64,000 bases of DNA. Source: Ralstonia sp. 25mfcol4.1. GTDB lineage: Bacteria; Pseudomonadota; Gammaproteobacteria; Burkholderiales; Burkholderiaceae. How positions within the stretch are numbered: the stretch's first letter is position 1; each line of letters starts with the position of its first letter. The translations under genes and the position numbers were made by a program. Of this stretch, positions 10,341 to 23,682 are shown piece by piece. Location: positions 1 through 64,000 of the forward strand of contig NZ_FNJO01000001.1 in assembly GCF_900104095.1 (NCBI RefSeq). Reading direction: 5' to 3'. The notes beneath the pieces were generated by a model. That model saw only the letters and a program-made list of their open reading frames with translations, was not told where the DNA came from and ran no database searches.

Positions 10341-11288
10341 TCAGGCGGCGACCGCCAGGCGGCTGGTCGCCTCGGCCAGCGCGGTCGACACGGTGTCGCG
10401 CGACAGGTGCGGCGCGAACATGTTGATGAACGCATGGGCGTAGCCGCGCAGGTAGGCCCCACGCCGCACGGCCACGCTGGTGGTGTTCGGCTCGAACAGG
10501 TGATCGGCGGAAATCTGCGTCAGGCCGGCGTCCTTGCGCGAGTCGTACGCCATCGACGCGATGATGCCCACGCCCAGTTCCAGCTCGGCATAGGTCTTGA
10601 TCACGTCGGCATCCATGGCGGTCAGCACGATCTCCGGCTGCAGCCCGGCGGCGGCAAACGCGCCATCGATCTTGCGGCGCCCGGTGAAACCGGCGTCGTA
10701 GGTGATGATCGGGAAATTGCACAGGTCTTCGAGCGTCGGCTCGGGCAGGCGGGTCAGCGGATGCTCCGGCGACACCACGATCACGTGCTGCCAGCTATAG
10801 GCCTCGAACGACGTCAGCCCCGCCTCGCTGGCCACCGCCTCGGTGGCAATGCCGATATCGGCCTGCCCCGTCAGCAGCAGTTCCACGATATGCGACGGCG
10901 ACGCTTCCTGCAGCGCCAGCGTGACGTGCGGATATTCGCGCCGGAAGCTCTGCACCACCCGGGGCAGCGCGTAGCGCGCCTGGGTGTGGGTGGTGGCCAC
11001 GGTCAGCCGGCCGGTATGGCGGCCCGCGAACTCGTCGCCGGCCTGGCGCAGGTTCTCGGCTTCGAGCAGCAGCCGTTCGACGATGCGAACGATCTCGCGG
11101 CCCGGCTCGGTCAGCCCGGTCAGCCGCTTGCCGTAACGCTCGAAGATCTCCACGCCAAGCTCTTCCTCAAGCTCGCGGATCTGGCGCGACACGCCCGGTT
11201 GCGACGTGTACAGCGCGTTGGCCACTTCGGTCAGGTTGAACTGGCGGCGCACCGCCTCGCGAATCGATCGCAGTTGCTGGAAGTTCAT
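10341..11288 (-). CDS. cysB: CysB-family LysR regulator of sulfur assimilation
   Basis: 315 aa. The N-terminus [19 protein letters not shown] and [18 protein letters not shown] match the CysB/Cbl helix-turn-helix. The effector domain contains [11 protein letters not shown] and [11 protein letters not shown], conserved residues of the sulfate/N-acetylserine-binding pocket of this subfamily. CysB activates sulfate and sulfonate uptake genes under sulfur limitation. It is the last gene of the cysTWA unit: its ATG overlaps the cysA stop by 4 bp (ATGA), implying translational coupling. Two 42-bp motifs upstream of cysT and sbp are candidate binding sites. Confidence 0.95.
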
Positions 11289-12391
11289 CGTGCCGCCCCT
11301 TGATCCTGTGTTGTTGTCTGGTTGCGGTTGAAGACGCGCAGCTGGCGCGGACGCACCGCCAGCAGTTCGCCCTCCCGGAAGCCCTGGTGCCGGAAGCGTT
11401 CCAGCGGCAGCGCCACCTCGATCACGTCCTGGTTGTCTTCGCGCTCCAGCTCCAGCTGGGCCACCGGGCCCAGCGTCAGCGCGCGGCGCAGCGTCACGGC
11501 GATGCCGTCGGTGCCCGGCGCGTAGCGTTCCAGTTCCAGGTCGTGCGGGCGGACGTAGGCCACCGCGTCGCCGGCCGTCTCGTGGCCGCTGCCTACCACG
11601 GGCAGCACCGCCTCGCCCGTATGCAGCAGGCCGCCGCTGTCGCCCACTTCCAGGCGGCCGTGGAACAGGTTCACGTTGCCCAGGAAGCCGAACACGAACG
11701 GCGTGGCCGGATGGTTGTAGACCGCCTCGGGCGTGCCGAACTGCTCCACGCTGCCACGGTTCATCAGCACCACCTGGTCGGCCACTTCGAGCGCCTCTTC
11801 CTGGTCGTGGGTCACGAACACGCTGGTCACGTGCAGTTCGTCATGCAGCCGGCGCAGCCAGCGGCGCAGTTCCTTGCGCACCTTGGCGTCGAGCGCGCCG
11901 AACGGTTCGTCGAGCAGCAGCACACGCGGCTCCACGGCCAGCGCGCGGGCCAGCGCGATACGCTGGCGCTGGCCGCCCGACAGCTGCGCCGGGTAGCGGT
12001 CGCCCAGCCAGTCGAGCTGCACCAGTTCCAGCAGCGACTTCACCTTCTCGCGGATCTTCGCCTCGGACGGGCGCTCGGCGCGCGGCTTCACGCGCAGGCC
12101 GAAGGCCACGTTCTCGAACACGGTCATGTGCTTGAACAGCGCGTAGTGCTGGAACACGAAACCGACGCTGCGCTGGCGCACGTGCGTCGACGAGGCGTCC
12201 TGCCCGGCCAGCACCACCTGGCCCGCGTCGGCGCGTTCCAGGCCGGCGATAATGCGCAGCAGCGTGGTCTTGCCGCAGCCGGACGGCCCCAGCAGCGCCG
12301 TCAGTTCCCCTTCGGCGAAGTCCAGCGAGACGTCGTTGAGCGCCACAAAATCGCCAAACCGCTTCTGCACGTTCCTGACCTGAATGCTCAT
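11285..12391 (-). CDS. cysA: Sulfate/thiosulfate ABC transporter ATPase
   Basis: 368-aa ATPase of the sulfate permease. Walker [13 protein letters not shown], signature [15 protein letters not shown] and Walker [13 protein letters not shown] are intact. The C-terminal about 120 residues form the TOBE-like regulatory domain typical of CysA ([13 protein letters not shown]). It couples ATP hydrolysis to uptake through CysT/CysW at the inner membrane. The gene overlaps cysW and cysB by 4 bp each, so cysTWAB is one tightly coupled unit. Confidence 0.96.
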
Positions 12392-13278
12392 GATGGCTGC
12401 CCTTCCGATGCGTGTTCACGGCTGGCGCGTGCTTCCACCAGCGTCTTGATTCCGAGTGTGACCAGCGCCAGCAGCGTCAGCAGGGACGCCACCGCGAACG
12501 CGGCCGCAAAGTTGTATTCGTTGTAGAGAATTTCCACGTGCAGCGGCATGGTGTTGGTCAGGCCGCGGATATGGCCCGATACCACCGACACGGCGCCGAA
12601 TTCGCCCATCGCCCGGGCGTTGCAGAGGATCACCCCGTACAACAGGCCCCAGCGGATGTTCGGCAGCGTCACATGCCAGAACGTCTGCCAGCCAGAGGCG
12701 CCCAGCACGATGGCCGCCTCTTCCTCTTCACTGCCCTGCGACTGCATCAGCGGAATCAGTTCGCGCGCCACGAACGGGAAGGTCACGAAGATCGTGGCCA
12801 GGACGATGCCCGGCACCGCGAACATGATCTTGATATCGTGCGCTTCCAGCCAAGGCCCGAACCAGCCCTGCGCGCCGAACATCAGCACGTAGATCAGGCC
12901 CGAGATCACCGGCGACACCGAGAACGGCAGGTCGATCAGCGTGATCAGGAGGTTCTTGCCCCGGAAGTCGAACTTGGCGATGGCCCAGGCCGCCGCCACG
13001 CCGAACACCACGTTCAGCGGCACCGCGATGGCCGCCACGGTCAGCGTCAGCTTGATGGCTTCCACCGCGTCGGGCTCGGTCAGCGCCGCCAGGTAGGTGT
13101 CCAGGCCCTTGCGCAGCGCCTCGTAGAACACCGAAGCCAGCGGCACGAACAGGAACAGCGCCAGGAACAGCACCGCCACCGTAATCAGCGTATAGCGCAC
13201 CCACCGGGATTCGCCCGTGGCGTCGTGCGGATGTTGGGCGGCAGCCGGGCCGCCCAGTCGGGATACAGCGCCGGCCAT
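12388..13278 (-). CDS. cysW: Sulfate ABC transporter permease CysW
   Basis: 296-aa inner-membrane permease with six predicted helices and an EAA-type cytoplasmic loop around [20 protein letters not shown], which contacts CysA. The start [10 protein letters not shown] at 13278 lies 1 bp after the cysT stop; a longer frame reaching 13326 would overlap cysT and is not favoured. It forms the channel with CysT. Confidence 0.95.
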
Positions 13279-13279
13279 G

Positions 13280-14215
13280 TCAGTTCGCCTCCGGGTTGCC
13301 GTCAGGCAGCGCGGCCGCGCGGGCACCGGTCTGGTGGCGGCGCGTCCAGGCCTGCAGCAGGTTGATCAGCAGCAGCAGCACGAACGAGATCACCAGCATC
13401 ACCACGGCCACCGCGGTGGCGCCGGCATAGTCGTACTGTTCCAGCTTCGAATAGATCATCAGCGGGGCAATCTCGGACACCATCGGCATGTTGCCGGAGA
13501 TGAAGACCACCGATCCGTACTCGCCGGTGGCGCGCGCGAACGACATCGCAAAGCCCGTCAGCAGCGCCGGCAGGATGGCCGGCAGGATCACCCGCCCGAA
13601 CGTCTGCAGGCGTGAGGCGCCCAGGCTGGCGGCCGCTTCCTCCAGTTCGCGTTCCACGTCTTCCAGCACCGGCTGCACCGTGCGCACCACGAACGGCAGG
13701 CCGATGAAGGTCAGCGCCACCACCACGCCCAGCGGCGTAAACGCCACCTTGATGCCGTGCGGCTCCAGCCAGCGGCCGATCCAGCCGTTGCCGGCGAACA
13801 GGGCGGTCAGCGCGATACCAGCCACCGCCGTGGGCAGGGCGAACGGCAGGTCAACCAGCGCATCGATGAATCGCTTGCCGAAGAAGCGGTAGCGCACCAG
13901 CACCCAGGCCACGACAAGGCCAAAGGCCGTGTTGACGATGGCGGCAATCAGCGACGCGCCAAAGCTCAGTTCCAGCGATGCCACCACGCGCGGGTTGCTC
14001 ACCGTCGCCCAGAAGCCATCCCAGGTCAGCGTGAAGGTCTTCAGGAACACCGCCGACAGCGGGATCAGGACGATCAGCGTCAGGTAGAAGATGGTGAAGC
14101 CAAGCGACAGCCCGAAGCCCGGCAACACGGTAAATCGCTGGGCCGGCGCAGCGCGCAGGGGCGCGGCGCTGGCCGTCTGCGGCGGCGCGTCCGCCAGGGA
14201 AATCGAGGAAGGCAT
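13280..14215 (-). CDS. cysT: Sulfate ABC transporter permease CysT
   Basis: 311-aa inner-membrane permease, partner of CysW. Six hydrophobic helices are visible and the EAA loop ([20 protein letters not shown]) is intact. It is the first gene of cysTWAB. The candidate CysB-responsive motif lies 77 bp upstream of its start and overlaps the end of the preceding hydrolase gene. Unlike many bacteria, the binding-protein gene is not adjacent: sbp is 6 kb upstream. Confidence 0.95.
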
Positions 14216-14292
14216 GCGTGTCTCGTCTTATGAAACCGGCGCATAAGGCGCCGGCGTACGAGACAAATTTTGCAGATGCGCCCTTATAAAAA

Positions 14293-14334
14293 GAACGAAT
14301 CTTTCCGAATTTTCTTAGACGTTTTAGATATAAG
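14293..14334 (-). promoter_or_regulatory. Candidate CysB-responsive element upstream of cysT
   Basis: Read on the minus strand it is CTTAT-N4-AAAACGT-N18-ATTCGTTC. The same three blocks with the same spacing occur upstream of sbp (21348-21389). The two sequences agree at 26 of 42 positions by hand count. Its position before cysT and at the head of the other sulfur unit makes CysB the obvious candidate binder; this is inference. Confidence 0.6.
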
Positions 14335-14989
14335 GCGATGTCTGTGCGACATCTGCCGACGCTTCCCACGAGTCCGAACCGTCTCCCAGGTGCAGAATAC
14401 GGCCCTCGGAATCGATCCGCTGCAGCAATGTGGCGAGCAAGGCCTGCCCTGCCGGCCATTCGTCGAGGCGGGAATCGGCATTGATATGGCCGAGCGCGCC
14501 CGCATCCACCAGTTCGCTGCCCCACAGCGTGCCCCAGCTGAACGCGGTGCGTTGCGACATCCACGGGTCATTGGTGCTGGCCACCAGCACGGTGGGGAAC
14601 GGCAGCCGCCAGGTGGGCAGCAAGCCACCCACGCCGAACTTGTCCGGATCCGCGGGGGCTACCAGCAGCGCGCCGGCGATGCCCACGGGGTCCAGCGACG
14701 CCTGGCGCAGCGTAGCCAGGCAGCCGAAGCTGTGCGCCACCAAGACCGCGCCGCGCGATGCCACGCGCAGCGCGCGCGACACGCCTTCCGATACACGTTC
14801 GGCCCACAGCGGCAGGCTGGGGCGTCCCCAGTCGTGCTGCTCGATGCGCTGCCAGTCGGGGTACAGCGCTTCCCAACGGCTTTGCCAATGTGCGGGCCCG
14901 CTGCCATGCAGGCCCGGTACGGTCAGGATCTGCAGGCCGCGCGGCACTTCCAGCCGCGCGACACCGCCCGATAGAGTCGATGCCGCCAT
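14324..14989 (-). CDS. RBBP9/YdeN-family serine hydrolase
   Basis: 221-aa compact alpha/beta hydrolase. The family opening LTVPGLHGSGPAHWQSRWE, the nucleophile in VAHSFGCLA, the acid in ASTNDPWMS and the His in LGHINADS are all present, so it is probably active. Members have poorly defined substrates. It sits between the EAL gene and cysT on the same strand, inside the sulfur block, with its 3' end overlapping the cysT control motif. A role in sulfonate or ester metabolism is only suggested by position. Confidence 0.85.
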   Translation of the reverse strand: MAASTLSGGVARLEVPRGLQILTVPGLHGSGPAHWQSRWEALYPDWQRIEQHDWGRPSLPLWAERVSEGVSRALRVASRGAVLVAHSFGCLATLRQASLDPVGIAGALLVAPADPDKFGVGGLLPTWRLPFPTVLVASTNDPWMSQRTAFSWGTLWGSELVDAGALGHINADSRLDEWPAGQALLATLLQRIDSEGRILHLGDGSDSWEASADVAQTSPYI

Positions 14990-15119
14990 ACGCGCTCTCC
15001 TTCTCTGCTTCGGTGCTTCGTTGTTCAGGACTTATGGGTACTGCAACAGCTTTCCGACTGCGGGTCGATGTTCGATTGCAGGCACGGCCCGCCTGCGAGT
15101 GCCGGCAGGCCGATGCCGC

Positions 15120-15974
15120 CTAGGGAGCACTGCCCGCCTGCAACGGCTCATGCAACTGCCGTGCCGGCACCGGCCCGCCGGCCACGGCCTCGCCCTGCCC
15201 CAGCGCGATGCCCGCGTTCTGCAGCCGCTCCACGGCTTCGTCGTTCTGCAGCCGCCGGCCGATCAGCGTGACGCCGGCGCCCTCGGCGCTGGCACGCAGC
15301 CCGGCAAGCTGACGGTCGGTCCAGATGCGACGCATGTCCAGCTTGAGCCAGTCGGGCAGCGCGTGGGCCATCAGCGCGCCGGCCTCGGCCGGGTCGGACG
15401 CCTGCAGGCTCACGGCAAACCCATTGCGGCGATAGTTGCCCACCACGTGCAGCAACAGCGGCAGGTCGTCATTGGCGCTGGCAGGCACCTGAATGACAAA
15501 ACGGTCCACGGGCAGGCCCAGAGACTCCAGCGCGCGCCGGAATGCCGCGCCATGATCGTCGGCCACGGCCGCCAGCAGGCGGTTATGCACGTTGAGCACG
15601 AGCTTGCGCTCGCCGTTCGCCGCGAAGTAGTTCATCGCGTGCACCAGCCGCGACAGGCGGTCCAGCGACACCAGCGACGCATCGTCGGCCGCCATCGCGA
15701 ACAGCTTCCAGGCGGCCAGCCCCACGCCATCGTCGGCATAGGTGCGGATCGAGCCCTCGTGGGCCACCACCTCGCGGTCGGCCAGGGTCACCAGGGGCTC
15801 GAATGCGCTGGTCAGCGAGCAGTTGAAGTACTGGCCCTGCACCTGCCCGCGCGCGTCGCGCCACAGCTCGCGGCCGGGCACCGGCTCGCGCGGCAGGGTT
15901 TCAAGGTAGCGTTCGAGTGCGGAGGTTGCGGAAGGTGCGGAAGTTGCGGAAGCGTGGGTCATGGTGAAGTCCAT
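15120..15974 (-). CDS. Degenerate EAL-domain protein
   Basis: 284 aa with the overall EAL-domain layout (FEPLVTLADREVVAHEGSIR, LVLNVHNRLL, LPDWLKLDMRRI), preceded by about 45 residues of Ala/Ser/Thr-rich sequence. Catalytic EAL phosphodiesterases need the EAL glutamate and the metal-binding DDFGTG loop. Here the loop is replaced by SLQASDPAE, and the strand giving the second Glu reads IQVPAS, so cyclic-di-GMP hydrolysis is very unlikely. It could bind a nucleotide or act as a protein adaptor. It lies 27 bp after ssuB. The start could also be the ATG at 15962; neither has a good Shine-Dalgarno. Confidence 0.82.
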   Translation of the reverse strand: MDFTMTHASATSAPSATSALERYLETLPREPVPGRELWRDARGQVQGQYFNCSLTSAFEPLVTLADREVVAHEGSIRTYADDGVGLAAWKLFAMAADDASLVSLDRLSRLVHAMNYFAANGERKLVLNVHNRLLAAVADDHGAAFRRALESLGLPVDRFVIQVPASANDDLPLLLHVVGNYRRNGFAVSLQASDPAEAGALMAHALPDWLKLDMRRIWTDRQLAGLRASAEGAGVTLIGRRLQNDEAVERLQNAGIALGQGEAVAGGPVPARQLHEPLQAGSAP

Positions 15975-16001
15975 GTCGGTACGCGCGGTTCGCCTGATTG
16001 C

Positions 16002-16919
<918 letters not shown>

Positions 16920-16934
16920 GGGGATCTCTCCTTG

Positions 16935-17756
16935 TCAGTTGGTCTGGTAGCCCGGATGCCAGCGCAGCCAGAACCGTTCCAGCGCGCGCGACAGCACATC
17001 GGCCAGCTTGCCCAGCAGCGCGTAGAGCAGGATGCCGACCAGTACCACGTCGGTCTGCAGGAATTCGCGCGCATTCATCGTCATGTAGCCAATGCCCGAC
17101 TGCGCCGAGATGGTCTCGGCCACGATCAGGATCACCCACATCAGGCCCAGCGAAAACCGCACGCCCACCAGGATGTTCGGCAGTGCGCCGGGCAGGATCA
17201 CTTCGCGATACAGGCGCCAGCGGGACAGGCCATAGCTGCGCGCCATCTCCACCAGGCCCGGGTCCACGGCGCGGATGCCGTGGTAGGTGTTCAGGTACAC
17301 CGGGAAGAACACGCCCAGCGCCACCAGGAACAGCTTGGCGGTCTCGTCGATGCCGAACCACAGGATCACCAGCGGGATCAGCGCCAGCGTGGGGATGTTG
17401 CGCACCATCTGCAGCGTGCTGTCGAGCAGCGTGGCCGCCGTGCGGAACGTGCCGGTCAGCAGGCCCAGCGCCAGGCCCAGCCCGCCGCCCACTGCCAGCC
17501 CGATCAGCGCCCGCCAGGTGCTGACCCAGACGTGGCGCCACAGCTCGCCGGATACGGCCAGCGACCACGCCGCCTCCACCACGGCCAGCGGTGCCGGCAA
17601 CACACGGTTCGACAGCCAGCCCAGTTGCGAGGCGCCCTGCCAGACCACGATCAGCAGCACCGGCACGATCCACGGTGCCACGGCCTGCGCCGCGGTTTTC
17701 TTCCCAGCCTTGTTCGCGGTTTTCTTCGCGACCTGGCTCGATATAGGCGTCGTCAT
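16935..17756 (-). CDS. ssuC: Aliphatic sulfonate ABC transporter permease
   Basis: 273-aa inner-membrane permease with about six helices and the EAA loop VEMARSYGLSRWRLYREVIL. The start MTTPISSQVAKK at 17756 gives a Lys/Ala-rich cytoplasmic tail; a much longer open frame reaching into ssuD is a shadow. It is separated from ssuD by 13 bp. Works with SsuB and SsuA. Confidence 0.94.
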   Translation of the reverse strand: MTTPISSQVAKKTANKAGKKTAAQAVAPWIVPVLLIVVWQGASQLGWLSNRVLPAPLAVVEAAWSLAVSGELWRHVWVSTWRALIGLAVGGGLGLALGLLTGTFRTAATLLDSTLQMVRNIPTLALIPLVILWFGIDETAKLFLVALGVFFPVYLNTYHGIRAVDPGLVEMARSYGLSRWRLYREVILPGALPNILVGVRFSLGLMWVILIVAETISAQSGIGYMTMNAREFLQTDVVLVGILLYALLGKLADVLSRALERFWLRWHPGYQTN

Positions 17757-17769
17757 GGTTGCGCCCTCC

Positions 17770-18933
17770 TCAACTCTGCGACGCCCGCGGCACGATGCCG
17801 GTGGCCATGACTTCGCCAAACGGGCCCGACAGCACCTGGCCGGGCAGCTTGTCGCGCACCGAGCGCGGCAGCAGCGGGAAGACCAGTTCGGCAAAGCGGT
17901 ACGCTTCTTCCAGATGCGGATAGCCCGAGAAGATGAACGTGTCGATGCCCAGCGCGGCGTATTCCTCCATGCGCGCGGCCACGGTCTGCGGGTCGCCCAC
18001 CAGGGCCGTGCCCGCGCCGCCGCGCACCAGCCCCACGCCGGCCCACAGGTTCGGGCTGATTTCCAGCGCCTCGCGGGTCCGCCTGGCGCCGCCGGCATGC
18101 AGGGCCGCCATGCGGCGCTGGCCTTCGGAATCCATCTTCGCGAAGACGGCCTGCGCGCGCGCCACGGTGTCGTCGTCGAGCCGGCTGATCAGTTCGTCGG
18201 CAGCCGCCCACGCCGCCGCTTCGGTTTCGCGCACGATCACGTGCAGGCGGATGCCGAAGCGCACCGTGCGGCCGTGCTTCGCGGCCCGGGCGCGCACGTC
18301 GGCGATTTTCTTCGCCACCTCGGCCGGCGGTTCGCCCCACGTCAGGTAGGCCTCCACCTGCTCGGCGGCCAGGTCGTGCGCGGCCGCCGACGATCCGCCG
18401 AAATAGACCGGCGGATGCGGGCGCTGCACCGGCGGATACAGCACCCGCGCGCCCTTCACGGTGATGTGCTTGCCCTCGAAGCTGATGTCGCCGTTGTCGT
18501 GGCTGGCCGCGAGCACGTCGCGCCAGACGCGGATGAACTCGGACGACGCCTCGTAGCGCGCCGCGTGGTCAAGGAACAACCCGTCGCCCTCCAGCTCCGC
18601 CACATCGCCGCCGGTCACCAGATTCACCAGCAGGCGGCCGCCCGACACGCGGTCGAACGTGGCGGCCATGCGCGCAGCCAGCGTTGGCGTCATCAAACCC
18701 GGTCGCACGGCCACCAGGAACTTGAGCTGGCGCGTCACGGCAGCCAGCGCCGACGCGGCCACCCATGGGTCTTCGCACGAGCGGCCGGTGGGAATCAGCA
18801 CGCCTTCGTAGCCCAGCGTATCGGCAGCCACGGCGATCTGCTTCAGGTAGTCGAAATTGACTTCGCGCGCCCCTTCCGAGGTGCCCAGGTAGCGGCTGTC
18901 GCCGTGGGTGGGGATGAACCAGAAAACTTGCAT
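17770..18933 (-). CDS. ssuD: FMNH2-dependent alkanesulfonate monooxygenase
   Basis: 387-aa TIM-barrel, luciferase-family enzyme that cleaves C1-C14 alkanesulfonates to aldehyde and sulfite using FMNH2 and O2. The sequence opens [20 protein letters not shown], and GRSCEDPWV and VNLVTGGD are family landmarks. It needs a flavin reductase (SsuE), but no ssuE is found in this cluster, so FMNH2 must come from elsewhere. It lies between ssuA and ssuC in one unit. Confidence 0.95.
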
Positions 18934-18993
18934 GTCGAGCCTCTTGTTTTATCGGTTGCGATGGACGGCCTGGCGATTCGGCGATTCACCGAT

Positions 18994-20013
18994 TCAGCGT
19001 TGCGCCGTGGCGGCCGGCGGTTGCCAGGCGGCATCGGCCACCTTGATCGGCTTCGGAATCAGCTTCAGCGTCACGAACGCGTCGGCAATACGCTGCTGTT
19101 CGGCCAGCACGCCTGCCGTCACAGGCTTCGCGCCATAGGAAAATCTTGAAACAGCAAGATCGAGCACGCTCGGGTCGAGCCCGGTTTCCCTGGCCAGGAA
19201 CTGCGTGGCGTCCTTCGGATTTTTCTCAGCCCACTGGCCCAGTTGCGCCAGTTCGTCGAGGATCGCGTTCACCACGTCCGGGCGGGCATTCGCATAGGGG
19301 CGCGACGCCAGATAGAACTGATGGTTGCTGACGAGGTTCTTGCCGTCGGCGGTACGGCCATCGGCCAGCACGCGGGCATCGAGCTGCTTTTCGGCGGCGG
19401 CCAGGAACGGGTCCCAGATCACCCAGGCATCCACGGCGCCGCGCTCGAAGGCCGCGCGGGCGTCGGCGGGCGGCAGGTAGACCGGCTGGATCTCGCTCCA
19501 GGGGATACCGGCCTTTTCCAGCTGGCGCACCAGCAGGTAATGCACGTTCGAGCCCTTGTTCAGCGCCACGCGCTTGCCGCGCAGGTCGGCCACGGACTTC
19601 AGCGTCGAAGTCTTCGGTACGACGATGGCTTCGGACGTCGGGGCGGGCGGCTCGTTGCCGATATAGGCCAGCTGCGCCCCGGCGGCCTGCGCGAAGATCG
19701 GCGGCGCCTCGCCGACGGTGCCGAAGTCGATGGCGCCCACGTTCAGGCCTTCCAGCAACTGCGGGCCGGCCGGGAATTCGGTCCACTTCACGGTGATGCC
19801 CTGCTGCGCCAGGCGCTTTTCCAGCGTGCCGCGCGCCTTGAGCAGCGTCAGCGTGCCGTACTTCTGATAGCCGATGCGCAACTGCTTCGGATTCACGGTC
19901 TGGGACTGCGCCTGGGCCGGCTTGGCCAGCAGGCCGTAGGTCAGGCCGGTGGCCACCACGAGCGCGCCAAGCAGCAGGCGCCGGCGCAGGGAAAGCGGTT
20001 TGAACGATGTCAT
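18994..20013 (-). CDS. ssuA: Sulfonate ABC transporter substrate-binding protein
   Basis: 339 aa. An N-terminal signal peptide (SLRRRLLLGALVVATGLTYG, cleavage near KPAQAQS) precedes the periplasmic binding domain typical of the NMT1/SsuA family (LRIGYQKYGTLTLLKARGTL). The RRR before the hydrophobic core is compatible with Tat or Sec export. The start at 20013 was preferred to 20100 because the signal peptide begins there. First gene of ssuADCB, 60 bp before ssuD. Confidence 0.94.
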   Translation of the reverse strand: MTSFKPLSLRRRLLLGALVVATGLTYGLLAKPAQAQSQTVNPKQLRIGYQKYGTLTLLKARGTLEKRLAQQGITVKWTEFPAGPQLLEGLNVGAIDFGTVGEAPPIFAQAAGAQLAYIGNEPPAPTSEAIVVPKTSTLKSVADLRGKRVALNKGSNVHYLLVRQLEKAGIPWSEIQPVYLPPADARAAFERGAVDAWVIWDPFLAAAEKQLDARVLADGRTADGKNLVSNHQFYLASRPYANARPDVVNAILDELAQLGQWAEKNPKDATQFLARETGLDPSVLDLAVSRFSYGAKPVTAGVLAEQQRIADAFVTLKLIPKPIKVADAAWQPPAATAQR

Positions 20014-20242
20014 ATCGGGGTTCCGGATGAGGAGAAGTTCGAAATCGATGGCGGCACGACGCCCTGCCGGCGCCAGCGCGCGGCATGCGGAAAACGTCAT
20101 GCGTGGAGGAAACTTCAGGTCAGGCGGGACATCGCCCCATGGCGACGCGGGAAGGCAGGACAGCGCGAACAGCGGACATCTCGGGCTCCTTCGTCAGGCG
20201 CACCGGGGCGGCAAGGTGGAATTGGCCGCCCCGGCGCTGGGA
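20014..20242. other. sbp-ssuA intergenic region
   Basis: A 229-bp gap within the sulfur block. No copy of the CTTAT/AAAACGT/ATTCGTTC motif was found here, so ssuADCB may be transcribed from the sbp promoter or from an unrecognised one. No T-run terminator is visible after sbp. Confidence 0.4.
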
Positions 20243-21250
20243 TTACCGCTTGCCGGGCTGGTACACCTGGTCAAACGAACCGCCATCGGCAAAGTGCGCC
20301 TTCTGGGCCTTGGCCCAGCCGCCGAATACTTCGTCGATCGTGAACAGCTTCACCTTCGGGAAGTTGGCGGCGTACTTGGCAGCCACCTTTTCCGAGATCG
20401 GACGGTAATAGTTCTTGGCCGCGATTTCCTGGCCCTCGTCGGTGTACAGGAACTGCAGGTAGGCCTCGGCGGCCTTGCGCGTGCCCTTCTTGTCCACCAC
20501 CTTGTCGACCACGGCCACCGGCGGCTCGGCCAGGATCGAGACCGACGGCGCCACGATGTCGAACTTGTCCGGACCCAGTTCCTTGATGGCCAGGATGGCT
20601 TCGTTTTCCCATGCGATCAGCACATCACCCAGGCCACGCTCGACGAACGTGGTGGTGGCGCCGCGCGCGCCCGAATCCAGCACCGGCACGTTCTTGAGCA
20701 GCTGGCCGACGAATTCCTTGGCCTTGGCTTCATTGCCGCCCGGCTGGCGCAGCGCATAGCCCCAGGCAGCCAGGTAGTTCCAGCGGGCGCCGCCCGACGT
20801 CTTCGGGTTCGGCGTGATGACCTGCACGCCCGGCTTCACCAGGTCGTTCCAGTCCTTGATTTGTTTCGGGTTGCCCTTGCGCACCAGGAAGACGATCGTC
20901 GACGTGTACGGCGATGCGTTGTGCGGCAGGCGCTTCTGCCAGTCGGGCTTCAGCAGGCCCTTCTCGGCAATGGCGTCGATGTCATAGCCCAGCGCCAGCG
21001 TGACCACGTCCGCGTCCAGGCCATCGATCACCGAACGCGCCTGCTTGCCCGAACCGCCGTGCGACTGGCGAATCTGCACCGTATCGCCGCCCTGCGCCTT
21101 GTACGCCTTGGCAAACGCGGCGTTCACGTCCACGTACAGCTCGCGCGTGGGGTCATAGGAAACGTTCAGCAGGTTGGTATTGGCCAGGGCGGCCGGTGCG
21201 GCGCCGATTGCGGACAGTACTGCGAGGCCCAGGGCCAGCTTGCGAATCAT
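20243..21250 (-). CDS. sbp: Sulfate ABC transporter substrate-binding protein
   Basis: 335 aa. A Sec signal peptide ([20 protein letters not shown], cleavage near ALA-NTN) is followed by a sulfate-binding fold starting [17 protein letters not shown], with [12 protein letters not shown] and [13 protein letters not shown] as anion-binding segments. It delivers sulfate or thiosulfate to CysTWA. The ATG at 21250 is preceded by GGGAGC. It leads the block sbp-ssuADCB, and a candidate CysB motif lies about 97 bp upstream. Confidence 0.95.
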
Positions 21251-21347
21251 GTTCAATTGCTCCCGTCAGAGTTGTCGTGAATGCCCCCGCCTGGATCGGA
21301 CGGGGTTTCTGTCAGGGAGAAAGGCTACCGGCCGGTCCTTCTGAACG

Positions 21348-21389
21348 GAACGAATGGTTTCGCCGATCCAAGCACGTTTTCTGCATAAG
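21348..21389 (-). promoter_or_regulatory. Candidate CysB-responsive element upstream of sbp
   Basis: Minus-strand sequence CTTAT-N4-AAAACGT-N18-ATTCGTTC, with block positions 21385-21389, 21374-21380 and 21348-21355. The blocks and spacing equal those before cysT at 14293-14334. It stands about 97 bp upstream of the sbp start. Confidence 0.6.
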
Positions 21390-21687: not shown

Positions 21688-23682
21688 TCATGGCGTGAAG
21701 GTGTTGCCCAGCACGACGCCCTCGCGCCGGGGGTCGGTGCCGCCCTGCAGCACTGGCGCGCCGCCGGCCTGGGTGCGCAGGATCGTGTTGACGCCGCTGG
21801 ACTGTGCCGCGGTGGAGATCGTGTGCCCCAGCGCCTTGAGGCCGGTGATCAGCGGATCGTTGGCGCCGGCGTTGCTGGCATCGATGTCCGGATGCTCGCC
21901 GCCGATGGTCGTGGTCGCGCTGTTGCTGGCGCCAAAATCCACCAGATTCGACGCCTGCTGCGCGTCAAGCCCCCAATCGAGCACGCCCACGAGCGTCTTG
22001 ACCACGTATTGCGGGATGGTGCCGCCGCCCGGCGAGCCCGTGGCCATCAGGAAATCGCCAATCGACCCGTCGGGCGCCTTGCGGAACACCAGCGTCGGCG
22101 CCATCGAGCTGCGCGGCCGCTTGCCCGGCTGCACCCGGTTGGCCACCAGGTTGCCGCTGGCGTCGGTCGGGGCGGCCGAGAAGTCGGTGAGCTGGTTGTT
22201 GAGCAGGAAGCCGTTGGTCATGTGGAACGACCCCATGCTCGACTCTACCGACGTCGTGGCGCTGACCACATTGCCCTGCGCGTCGACGATCGAGTAGTGG
22301 TTCGTGCCGTGTTCGACCAGCGGTACCACGCCCAGCGGCACCGCACCGAAGTTGCCGGCCGTTGCCGTACCCATCGAACGGGTCGGATCGATCAGCGCCG
22401 CACGCGTCTGCAGGTAGGGCTTGTTCAGCAGCGTGTCCCACGTTCCGCCTGGCAGCGGCACGAAGTCGGTATCGGCCACGTACTTGTCGCGGTCGGCGTA
22501 GGCCAGCCGTTCGGCCTCGCTCACCCGATGCACCCCCTGCACGGTCGGCTTGCCGCCCTCCCCATCCACGGGGTGGGGCTTGAACGACGCCATATCGAAG
22601 TTCTCGATGATCTGCATCGCCGATGCCACGGTGATGCCGCCCGATGTCGGGGGCGGCGCGCCGCAGATCCAGTACGCGCGGTACGTCACGCAGACCGGCG
22701 TGCGCAGCTTGGCCTCGTACGCGGCCAGGTCGGCCAGCGTGGTCTTGCCCGGGGTGGTCGGCGTGCCGTCCGTGGCGGTGGTCGCGCCGATCTTGGCGAT
22801 GATGTCGCTGGCGATGGCGCCCTTGTACAGCGCGTCGGCGCCCTGCGCGGCCATGGCGGTCAGCGTGTTGGCATAGGCCGGGTTCTTGAGCACCGTGCCC
22901 AGCGCCTTGGGGGTGCCATCGGCGTTGAAGAAATAGGCGGTGGCTTCGGGGTCGCGTTTCAGGCTGGCAGCGTTCGACGAGATGGCCTGCGCGAGCCGGC
23001 CGCCGATGGGGAAGCCGTTGGTGGCCAGCGAGATGGCGTCGCCGAACAGGTCCTTCCAGGCCAGCTTGCCGTGTTCCTTCTGCACGCGCTCGATCAGCCG
23101 GGGCACCCCAATGGTGCCGATCGACCGGCCGCTGGCACGCGCACTGGGCTTGGGCAGCGTCTGGTCGGTGGCGTCGTCCACGTAGCGCAGGTAGTTCTCG
23201 GTGGCCGCCGCCGGTGCCGTTTCGCGCCCGTCGTAGGCCTGCACCGTCTTCGCGGTGGCATCGTAATAGAGCATGAAGCCGCCCGACCCCATGCCCGTGG
23301 CCTCTGGCACCGTCAGGCCCAGCACGGCCTGCACGGCCACCGCGGCATCGGCGGCCGTGCCGCCATTCTTGAGCACCGCGCAGCCCGCCGCGCTGGCGTA
23401 GGCGTTCGATGTCGACACCATATAGGTCCTGGCGTACACCGGCTTCAACCCGGTGCGATAGCCGGTGGCAGCTTCCGGCAATGCCGGGTCGCCGGGCTGG
23501 TTCGACCCGACCACCACCGTGCTGCCGTTGCTGGCCAGCACCTGGCAACTGTTATCGGCCTGTGGCGTGGCGGGCGTGGTCGGCGTCGAGTTGTCGTCGC
23601 TGCCACCGCAGGATACGACCAGCAGCGTGCCCGCAACCGCGGCCGCCAGGGTCAGGGGGACCTTCCGTATTGGCAACACCAT
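21688..23682 (-). CDS. ggt: Gamma-glutamyltransferase (glutathione hydrolase), lipoprotein
   Basis: 664 aa. A lipobox signal (LLVVSC, Cys about residue 25) and a Thr-rich linker suggest an envelope-anchored enzyme. The nucleophilic Thr that begins the small subunit after autocleavage is in EHGTNHYSIVDAQ, and the lid/oxyanion segments (GTIGVPRLIERV, GSPGGGTIPQYVV) are present. It hydrolyses glutathione and other gamma-glutamyl compounds in the periplasm. The start at 23682 has GGAGGAAAT directly upstream. A single-gene unit with its own terminator. Confidence 0.93.
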   Translation of the reverse strand: MVLPIRKVPLTLAAAVAGTLLVVSCGGSDDNSTPTTPATPQADNSCQVLASNGSTVVVGSNQPGDPALPEAATGYRTGLKPVYARTYMVSTSNAYASAAGCAVLKNGGTAADAAVAVQAVLGLTVPEATGMGSGGFMLYYDATAKTVQAYDGRETAPAAATENYLRYVDDATDQTLPKPSARASGRSIGTIGVPRLIERVQKEHGKLAWKDLFGDAISLATNGFPIGGRLAQAISSNAASLKRDPEATAYFFNADGTPKALGTVLKNPAYANTLTAMAAQGADALYKGAIASDIIAKIGATTATDGTPTTPGKTTLADLAAYEAKLRTPVCVTYRAYWICGAPPPTSGGITVASAMQIIENFDMASFKPHPVDGEGGKPTVQGVHRVSEAERLAYADRDKYVADTDFVPLPGGTWDTLLNKPYLQTRAALIDPTRSMGTATAGNFGAVPLGVVPLVEHGTNHYSIVDAQGNVVSATTSVESSMGSFHMTNGFLLNNQLTDFSAAPTDASGNLVANRVQPGKRPRSSMAPTLVFRKAPDGSIGDFLMATGSPGGGTIPQYVVKTLVGVLDWGLDAQQASNLVDFGASNSATTTIGGEHPDIDASNAGANDPLITGLKALGHTISTAAQSSGVNTILRTQAGGAPVLQGGTDPRREGVVLGNTFTP

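Follow-up and report, generated by a model that had tools for sequence, protein, structure and literature searches.

A candidate CysB-type activation element at the sbp and cysT promoters of a sulfur gene cluster in Ralstonia sp. 25mfcol4.1

The stretch of DNA analysed here (the "window", positions 1 to 64,000 of contig NZ_FNJO01000001.1 of Ralstonia sp. 25mfcol4.1, 64,000 nucleotides in all) carries a minus-strand cluster of sulfur genes in which two promoter regions, one before sbp (sulfate-binding protein) and one before cysT (sulfate permease), share a 42-bp element with identical internal spacing. What is this element, and what reads it? A preliminary description of the window had proposed a likely box for the regulator CysB. 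Our comparative analysis bears this out in essence, as a site for the CysB family, given that the element is conserved at sbp/cysT and that profile matches concentrate at sulfur genes. We consider it highly probable that the two elements serve a CysB-family LysR-type regulator as activation sites, at sigma-70-type promoters that depend on such an activator; this reading rests on sequence comparison.

The pattern CTTAT-N4-AAAACGT-N18-ATTCGTTC occurs free of mismatches on the minus strand at 14293-14334 (cysT) and 21348-21389 (sbp), so all 20 block positions agree, as first described. Allowing up to three mismatches, scans found the three-block pattern nowhere else in the window, in none of 100 shuffles, and at no third place in the host's own genome (6,337,400 bp, 44 contigs). 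Block identities between the two sites are 5/5, 7/7 and 8/8, and the spacers do differ as reported (0/4 and 6/18 identical), giving 26/42 overall. Because the blocks had been picked once the match was already seen, we tested overall identity instead, taking the best pair of 42-mers in dinucleotide shuffles (n=2000) of both 250-bp upstream regions. An identity of 26/42 was reached in 21/2000 shuffles, i.e., the pair on its own is approximately a 1% event and mild evidence—weaker than the improbability originally claimed for it—and the case therefore rests on comparative data.

We surveyed 60 genomes: the own genome, 35 others of the same genus (Cupriavidus, by named loci) and 24 from other genera of the order. 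With up to three mismatches, the literal pattern is present in the own genome and in 34/35 of the other same-genus genomes (the sole miss being a 54% complete genome), in 0/24 genomes of other genera and, as a reversed control, once each in 4/60 genomes. We therefore rejected the three blocks as the true motif. When expectation maximisation was applied to 137 upstream regions, those of sbp and of detached cysT genes (cysT regions less than 500 bp from sbp were excluded), it instead yielded an ungapped element of 44 columns, roughly.aTATg..taaa.cGtaTAagcAAatgagAAAtgaTTCGTTctc. Its core is approximately ATAAG..AA....AAA..TTCGTTC plus a -10 hexamer at fixed distance, and AAAACGT is not part of it; the literal three-block pattern is the local Cupriavidus form of this broader element. 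The preliminary remark that the site has no simple consensus in this lineage was too pessimistic, since a usable one exists.

In Cupriavidus, Ralstonia, Paucimonas, Janthinobacterium and Duganella, which span several betaproteobacterial families, this element is found at both sbp and cysT; in Dechloromonas, Propionivibrio, Rubrivivax and a Bordetella it was seen at sbp. Numerous distant rows of the motif search (e.g., Azospirillum, Paenibacillus and several of Geobacter type) score near or below zero. Within Cupriavidus, mean pairwise identity is 0.86 in the sbp element vs 0.56 in the 42 bp upstream (14 rows) and 0.87 in the cysT element vs 0.58 upstream (12 rows), so conservation before the orthologous genes, which had been proposed as a check, is indeed found and recurs in other genera. 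The downstream flanks have identities of 0.67 (sbp) and 0.83 (cysT). As the preliminary description observed, the preceding hydrolase open reading frame (ORF; 14324-14989) runs with its 3' end into the cysT element, its last residues and stop being encoded by CCT TAT ATC TAA. Because of this overlap, conservation of the first block at cysT may partly reflect coding constraint where the hydrolase gene is kept. Separately, at loci from other families (L213, L223 and L226, from genomes G058, G041 and G048) TTCGTTC is replaced in the proximal block by TTATTTC, TTACTTT or TTCTTTC, a variation that may track lineage or regulator clade.

The element has a fixed place in its promoter. The motif search was blind to DNA downstream of the 44 columns, yet the A2 and T6 of a -10-like hexamer that starts exactly 20 bp after TTCGTTC are present in 38/40 sites from other genera (one further row ended too soon to be counted), with T1 in 26/40. 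At 12 other offsets, only 0-4 of the 40 sites have A2 and T6, and in a 70-column alignment these two are nearly invariant columns. In the window, the predicted -10 hexamers at this distance are TAGCCT for sbp (21322..21327, minus strand) and CAAAAT for cysT (14267..14272, minus strand). Given a start approximately 7 nt beyond the hexamer, the 42-bp element is predicted to span about -74 to -33 and to overlap the -35 position, where TTCCGT and TTCTTT are poor matches to TTGACA. Such an arrangement fits what is expected of an activator-dependent promoter.

For profile searches, the 137 regions were reduced to 90 that passed a score and TTCGTTC filter, to 62 outside Cupriavidus, to 42 after near-duplicate removal and to 41 after one Pelotalea row was removed by hand as not betaproteobacterial. 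The TTCGTTC filter biases this set towards sites with that block and excluded some high-scoring distant rows (e.g., L085). A plain position weight matrix (PWM) from the non-Cupriavidus sites exceeds 9 bits at 2/127,914 window positions, and these are the cysT element (48.2 bits) and the sbp element (21.2 bits). We also built three models: R1, with 44 columns from the 41 non-Cupriavidus sites; R2, from those 41 sites too but with 70 columns including the -10; and R3, a control made from the R2 alignment with its columns reversed.

In the own genome, R2 gave 11 matches, all with an expectation value (E) below 0.02: eight clearly at sulfur genes, two plausible and one without an assigned gene. 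The eight are cysT (the top match, E 7.1e-8), sbp (E 0.00545), a safE-cysI operon, tauA, two ssuA-type genes, a sulfatase gene and msuE. The operon comprises safE, cysI, a DUF934 gene, two genes with 3'-phosphoadenosine-5'-phosphosulfate reductase domains (cysH, cysD), a GTPase-type gene (cysN by position) and a tetrapyrrole methylase gene, while the two plausible matches (C36:29605 and C19:84893) lie at transporter clusters of plausible sulfur use. R1 gave eight matches at E<=10. Its best is again the window's cysT site (E 7.2e-5), and ranks 2-6 precede an ssuA-type gene, another ssuA-type gene (divergent from a tauD-type gene), a sulfatase gene, tauA (divergent from a luciferase-type monooxygenase gene) and msuE; ranks 7 and 8 (E 0.58 and 0.77) have a TctC gene and a MauG-like gene in their vicinity. 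The reversed control R3 had no match in the own genome, and it is capable of matching because it does so in four other genomes. The genome-wide enrichment at sulfur genes that had been suggested as a test is thus present.

One locus among these matches deserves separate mention. On contig C30 of the own genome (G000), at approximately 172397-172491 (L119; L134:4397-4491), two elements of 20.9 and 21.3 bits point apart. They are flanked by an ssuA-type gene on one side and, on the other, by a tauD-type gene that is followed by another ssuA-type gene.

At E<=0.01, R2 has matches in 36/36 same-genus genomes, the own one included. Among the other genera of the order, it gave eight matches in six genomes, and seven of these precede a sulfur gene or operon. 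The eight are at cysT, sbp and a tauA-like gene in G042, cysI adjoining a CysB-family gene in G040, cysT in G051, a site approximately 0.5 kb before a porin-sbp-cysTW cluster in G058, sulfite reductase in G041, and one with no gene assigned in G037. G058 (99% complete) has a single CysB-family match at E<=1e-60; G041 also has one, but is only 68% complete. Three near-complete genomes without a CysB-family gene (G036, G049 and G054) have no R2 match, and the same is true of 15 genomes which have one.

A class-wide sample added 184 genomes, nearly all from other orders of the class, in which strict filters limited scoring to 27 candidates or fewer per genome. Here, only the location of matches is informative. 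Two of the four R2 matches (in G210 and G070) directly adjoin a cysB gene and are divergent from it, which holds for 0/4 R3 matches. The encoded proteins are 51% (G210) and 63% (G070) identical to E. coli CysB, and on the opposite side of the site lies a cytochrome-b-type ORF in G210 and safE in G070. The remaining two R2 matches fall at unrelated genes; at the four R3 sites, no sulfur query protein was matched.

The computed results—conservation of the element, its fixed geometry, its clustering at sulfur genes, and its presence next to CysB-family genes and in a genome with only one such regulator—point to sites of a CysB-family activator; binding, activation, the inducer, the start sites and the acting paralog are what we infer from them. 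Under sulfur shortage, an acetylserine-type inducer would let a regulator tetramer occupy the element and recruit RNA polymerase, with the TTCGTTC end overlapping the would-be -35 box and the -10 hexamer a fixed 20 bp away. The sbp site would drive sbp and, probably by read-through, ssuADCB. The cysT site would drive cysTWA and the regulator gene itself.

Several results weigh against this reading. The genome-wide R1 search did not list the sbp site, which came second (E 0.15) when the window was searched alone with filters off. One R2 match in the own genome (C30:109149-109203, L153) has a good -10 and no gene, whether for sulfur or not, directly downstream on its strand. R2 at E<=0.01 has matches in only 6/24 other-genus genomes, though 21/24 have a CysB-family match, and in the 184 distant genomes it shows no excess over R3 (4 vs 4). 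Three rows of the motif search, L085 (Geobacter, 16.3), L102 (14.7) and L088 (13.7), lack TTCGTTC and yet score around the 15.3 of the window's sbp site, so motif score alone sets no boundary.

Two further difficulties concern symmetry and E. coli. General LysR-type tetramer sites have a distal T-N11-A box and a promoter-proximal box, and the element resembles them in that, at five or more of six letters, a distal TAT-N11-ATA dyad is found in 27/41 sites and a proximal AA-N15-TT dyad in 29/41, with the best centres of the two boxes 21 bp apart. This symmetry is, however, within column-composition expectation (it is attained in 692 and 397 of 2000 column permutations), and we do not claim a two-box dyad, attractive as it is by eye. 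For E. coli, the PWM was compared with 500 dinucleotide shuffles per promoter at nine cys/Cbl-related promoters and 20 others. There, cysB (2/500) and cysD (8/500; it contains ATTCGTTC) are weak and near the best controls, ptsH (7/500) and cysZ (14/500). No match was seen at cysP (41/500), cysJ (125), sbp (332), cbl (342), tauA (257) or ssuE (176). The clear result is cysK, with 18.5 bits, 0/500 shuffles and TTACTTC 19 bp before TATGCT; with cmsearch (R1, filters off) it also came top of four E. coli stretches, but with an E of only 0.22. A plain-shuffle version with eight controls gave the same picture (cysK 0/300, cysD 8/300, cysP 23/300, best control ptsH 3/300). The element thus appears linked to only one experimentally studied CysB promoter, cysK.

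Beside the unassigned match at C30:109149, we note that a four-domain rhodanese gene and a Cys/Met pyridoxal-phosphate enzyme gene lie farther along the same strand, i.e., not directly downstream.

If a CysB-family protein reads the element, which one is it? The preliminary description stated that CysB is encoded in the same block. A CysB-family LysR regulator gene is indeed there (CysB1, 10341..11288, minus strand; NF009327, HTH_1 and LysR_substrate domains) and is the local candidate binder, but the own genome holds a second family member at C33:123238 (54% identical to the first), in divergent orientation to the safE-cysI operon, which has a site in its promoter. At E<=1e-60, the 36 same-genus genomes have two CysB-family matches in 32 cases, more in three and none in one; the 24 other-genus genomes have one in 16 cases, two or three in five and none in three. 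At least one such regulator is therefore present in 56/60 genomes. A 39-row tree puts E. coli CysB in a starred clade of eight (100/99) with the regulators of G059, G058, G041, G051, G048, G210 and G070, several of which adjoin safE or cysI. The window regulator is placed elsewhere, among the 27 rows of a group that also holds E. coli Cbl (94/89, not starred), so the tree does not make it a one-to-one ortholog of E. coli CysB. As a separate observation, the window-type CysB gene of one Cupriavidus genome (G023:C9:1442034-1442959) matches as two separate pieces, one with an internal stop.

These relationships leave room for a narrower version of our reading, in which one paralog only uses the site: either the window regulator, controlling sulfonate genes in the manner of Cbl/SsuR, or the second paralog adjoining cysI. 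We lean against it while regarding it as a serious contender. That two family members are present in the own genome and in most same-genus genomes fits this version, as does the N-terminal part of the window regulator: its residues 1-65 are 71% identical to E. coli Cbl and 54% to CysB, with 46% overall identity to both. SsuR of Burkholderia cenocepacia reportedly has sites at sulfonate genes, and the likeness to Cbl/SsuR extends to own-genome matches at sulfonate and taurine genes. On the other hand, those matches also include a sulfite/sulfate reduction operon, and the Cbl targets of E. coli, tauA and ssuE, are unmatched, on which ground we rejected a Cbl-type site. Sites also adjoin members of several tree clades, including that of E. 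coli CysB, and occur in a single-regulator genome, while the second paralog's own placement in the tree is weak (87/52). The question raised is whether one site is shared by both paralogs.

Could the conserved unit instead chiefly serve one particular sigma factor as its promoter? Its -10-like hexamer at a fixed distance would suit this. However, that hexamer is of the sigma-70 type (T A N N N T) and the sequence at the -35 position is poor, yet conservation extends well upstream of the -35 box, and matches are mostly at sulfur genes. We judge this explanation improbable. Less probable again is that one promoter was recently copied from the other by duplication or gene conversion: the blocks are identical, on the same strand and 7 kb apart, but each site is kept with its own ortholog and its own spacers in other Cupriavidus, elements occur at sbp and cysT in other genera, and identity falls upstream of the element, so orthologous conservation largely refutes it. 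A chance match of two unrelated promoters, for which one could cite the shuffle result and the post hoc choice of blocks, has next to no probability left and is refuted by cross-genus conservation, the profile matches at sulfur genes and the empty reversed control.

How does a CysB-family activation element compare with sites already known? The enterobacterial activation sites at cysK, cysJIH and cysP are named CBS-K1, CBS-J1 and CBS-P1. CysB binding at cysK and cysJIH is described as extensively characterised in PMC6277577. According to PMC11329422, sites at which CysB activates have their centre 50-60 bp upstream of the start, were proposed to be paired 19-bp half-sites, have a very weak consensus and have not been assigned with high confidence. 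Like the enterobacterial sites (cysK, cysJIH, cysP), the element is approximately 40 bp long (42-44) and precedes cys genes; if the predicted -10/start is right, it also lies just upstream of the -35 and its centre agrees with the position given in PMC11329422. Unlike those sites as characterised there, it has a clear consensus and a fixed 20 bp to the -10. A literature text search for the letters of ATTCGTTC returned matches that, among those listed, all looked unrelated by title. We found no published betaproteobacterial CysB consensus, including in the accessible parts of PMC5343134, PMC10179380, PMC5002191, PMC11957545, PMC9045368 and PMC6277577; this did not cover the Burkholderia cenocepacia CysB/SsuR work, and we do not claim absence from print.

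The kind of site is thus a known one, of which the CysB sequence pattern was previously hard to pin down. With a clear consensus tied to the -10, the CysB problem becomes testable in a lineage whose promoters are simple, and the consensus predicts a Cupriavidus sulfur-starvation regulon of sulfate, sulfonate, taurine and sulfate-ester genes. A wider claim, which we regard as close to evenly balanced and just short of probable, is that the element is an ancestral, family-wide CysB-type operator, with a strong consensus and rigid -10 distance, which several paralog clades of Burkholderiales read and which can still be recognised next to cysB in distant gammaproteobacteria and before cysK in E. 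coli. If true, it would give CysB a readable code and allow the sulfur-starvation regulon to be mapped from sequence alone.

In the window, the minus-strand gene order is sbp, ssuA, ssuD, ssuC, ssuB, an EAL-domain gene, a serine hydrolase gene, cysT, cysW, cysA and the CysB-family regulator gene. The first, sbp (20243..21250; NF008022, TIGR00971), is read from an ATG start, the mechanical ORF beginning at a TTG at 21256, and its product is 97% identical to C. pauculus Sbp. The sulfonate genes follow: ssuA-type aliphatic sulfonate binding protein (18994..20100, TIGR01728), ssuD alkanesulfonate monooxygenase (17770..18933, TIGR03565), ssuC-type permease (16935..17747, start hand-chosen, NF008470) and ssuB-type ATP-binding protein (16002..16919, with NF008420 as best match, under its curated cut-off). 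Across the 142 bp that separate sbp from ssuA, the PWM scan found no further element scoring over 9 bits, so ssuADCB probably relies on the sbp promoter.

After the serine hydrolase gene (PF06821), whose end lies in the cysT element, come cysT (13280..14215, TIGR02139), the first gene of the cysTWA-regulator group, cysW (12388..13326, an ORF named by its position between cysT and cysA, with tblastn relatives that adjoin cysT in related loci) and cysA sulfate ATP-binding protein (11285..12391, TIGR00968 above cut-off), all on the minus strand. Two neighbours are of side interest. The protein encoded between ssuB and the hydrolase gene (15120-15974, minus strand) matches the EAL domain (PF00563) above cut-off; judged by eye, the usual signature seems changed (HEGSIR). 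The gene immediately upstream of sbp, also on the minus strand (21688-23682), encodes a gamma-glutamyltranspeptidase (PF01019), which possibly draws on glutathione as a sulfur source.

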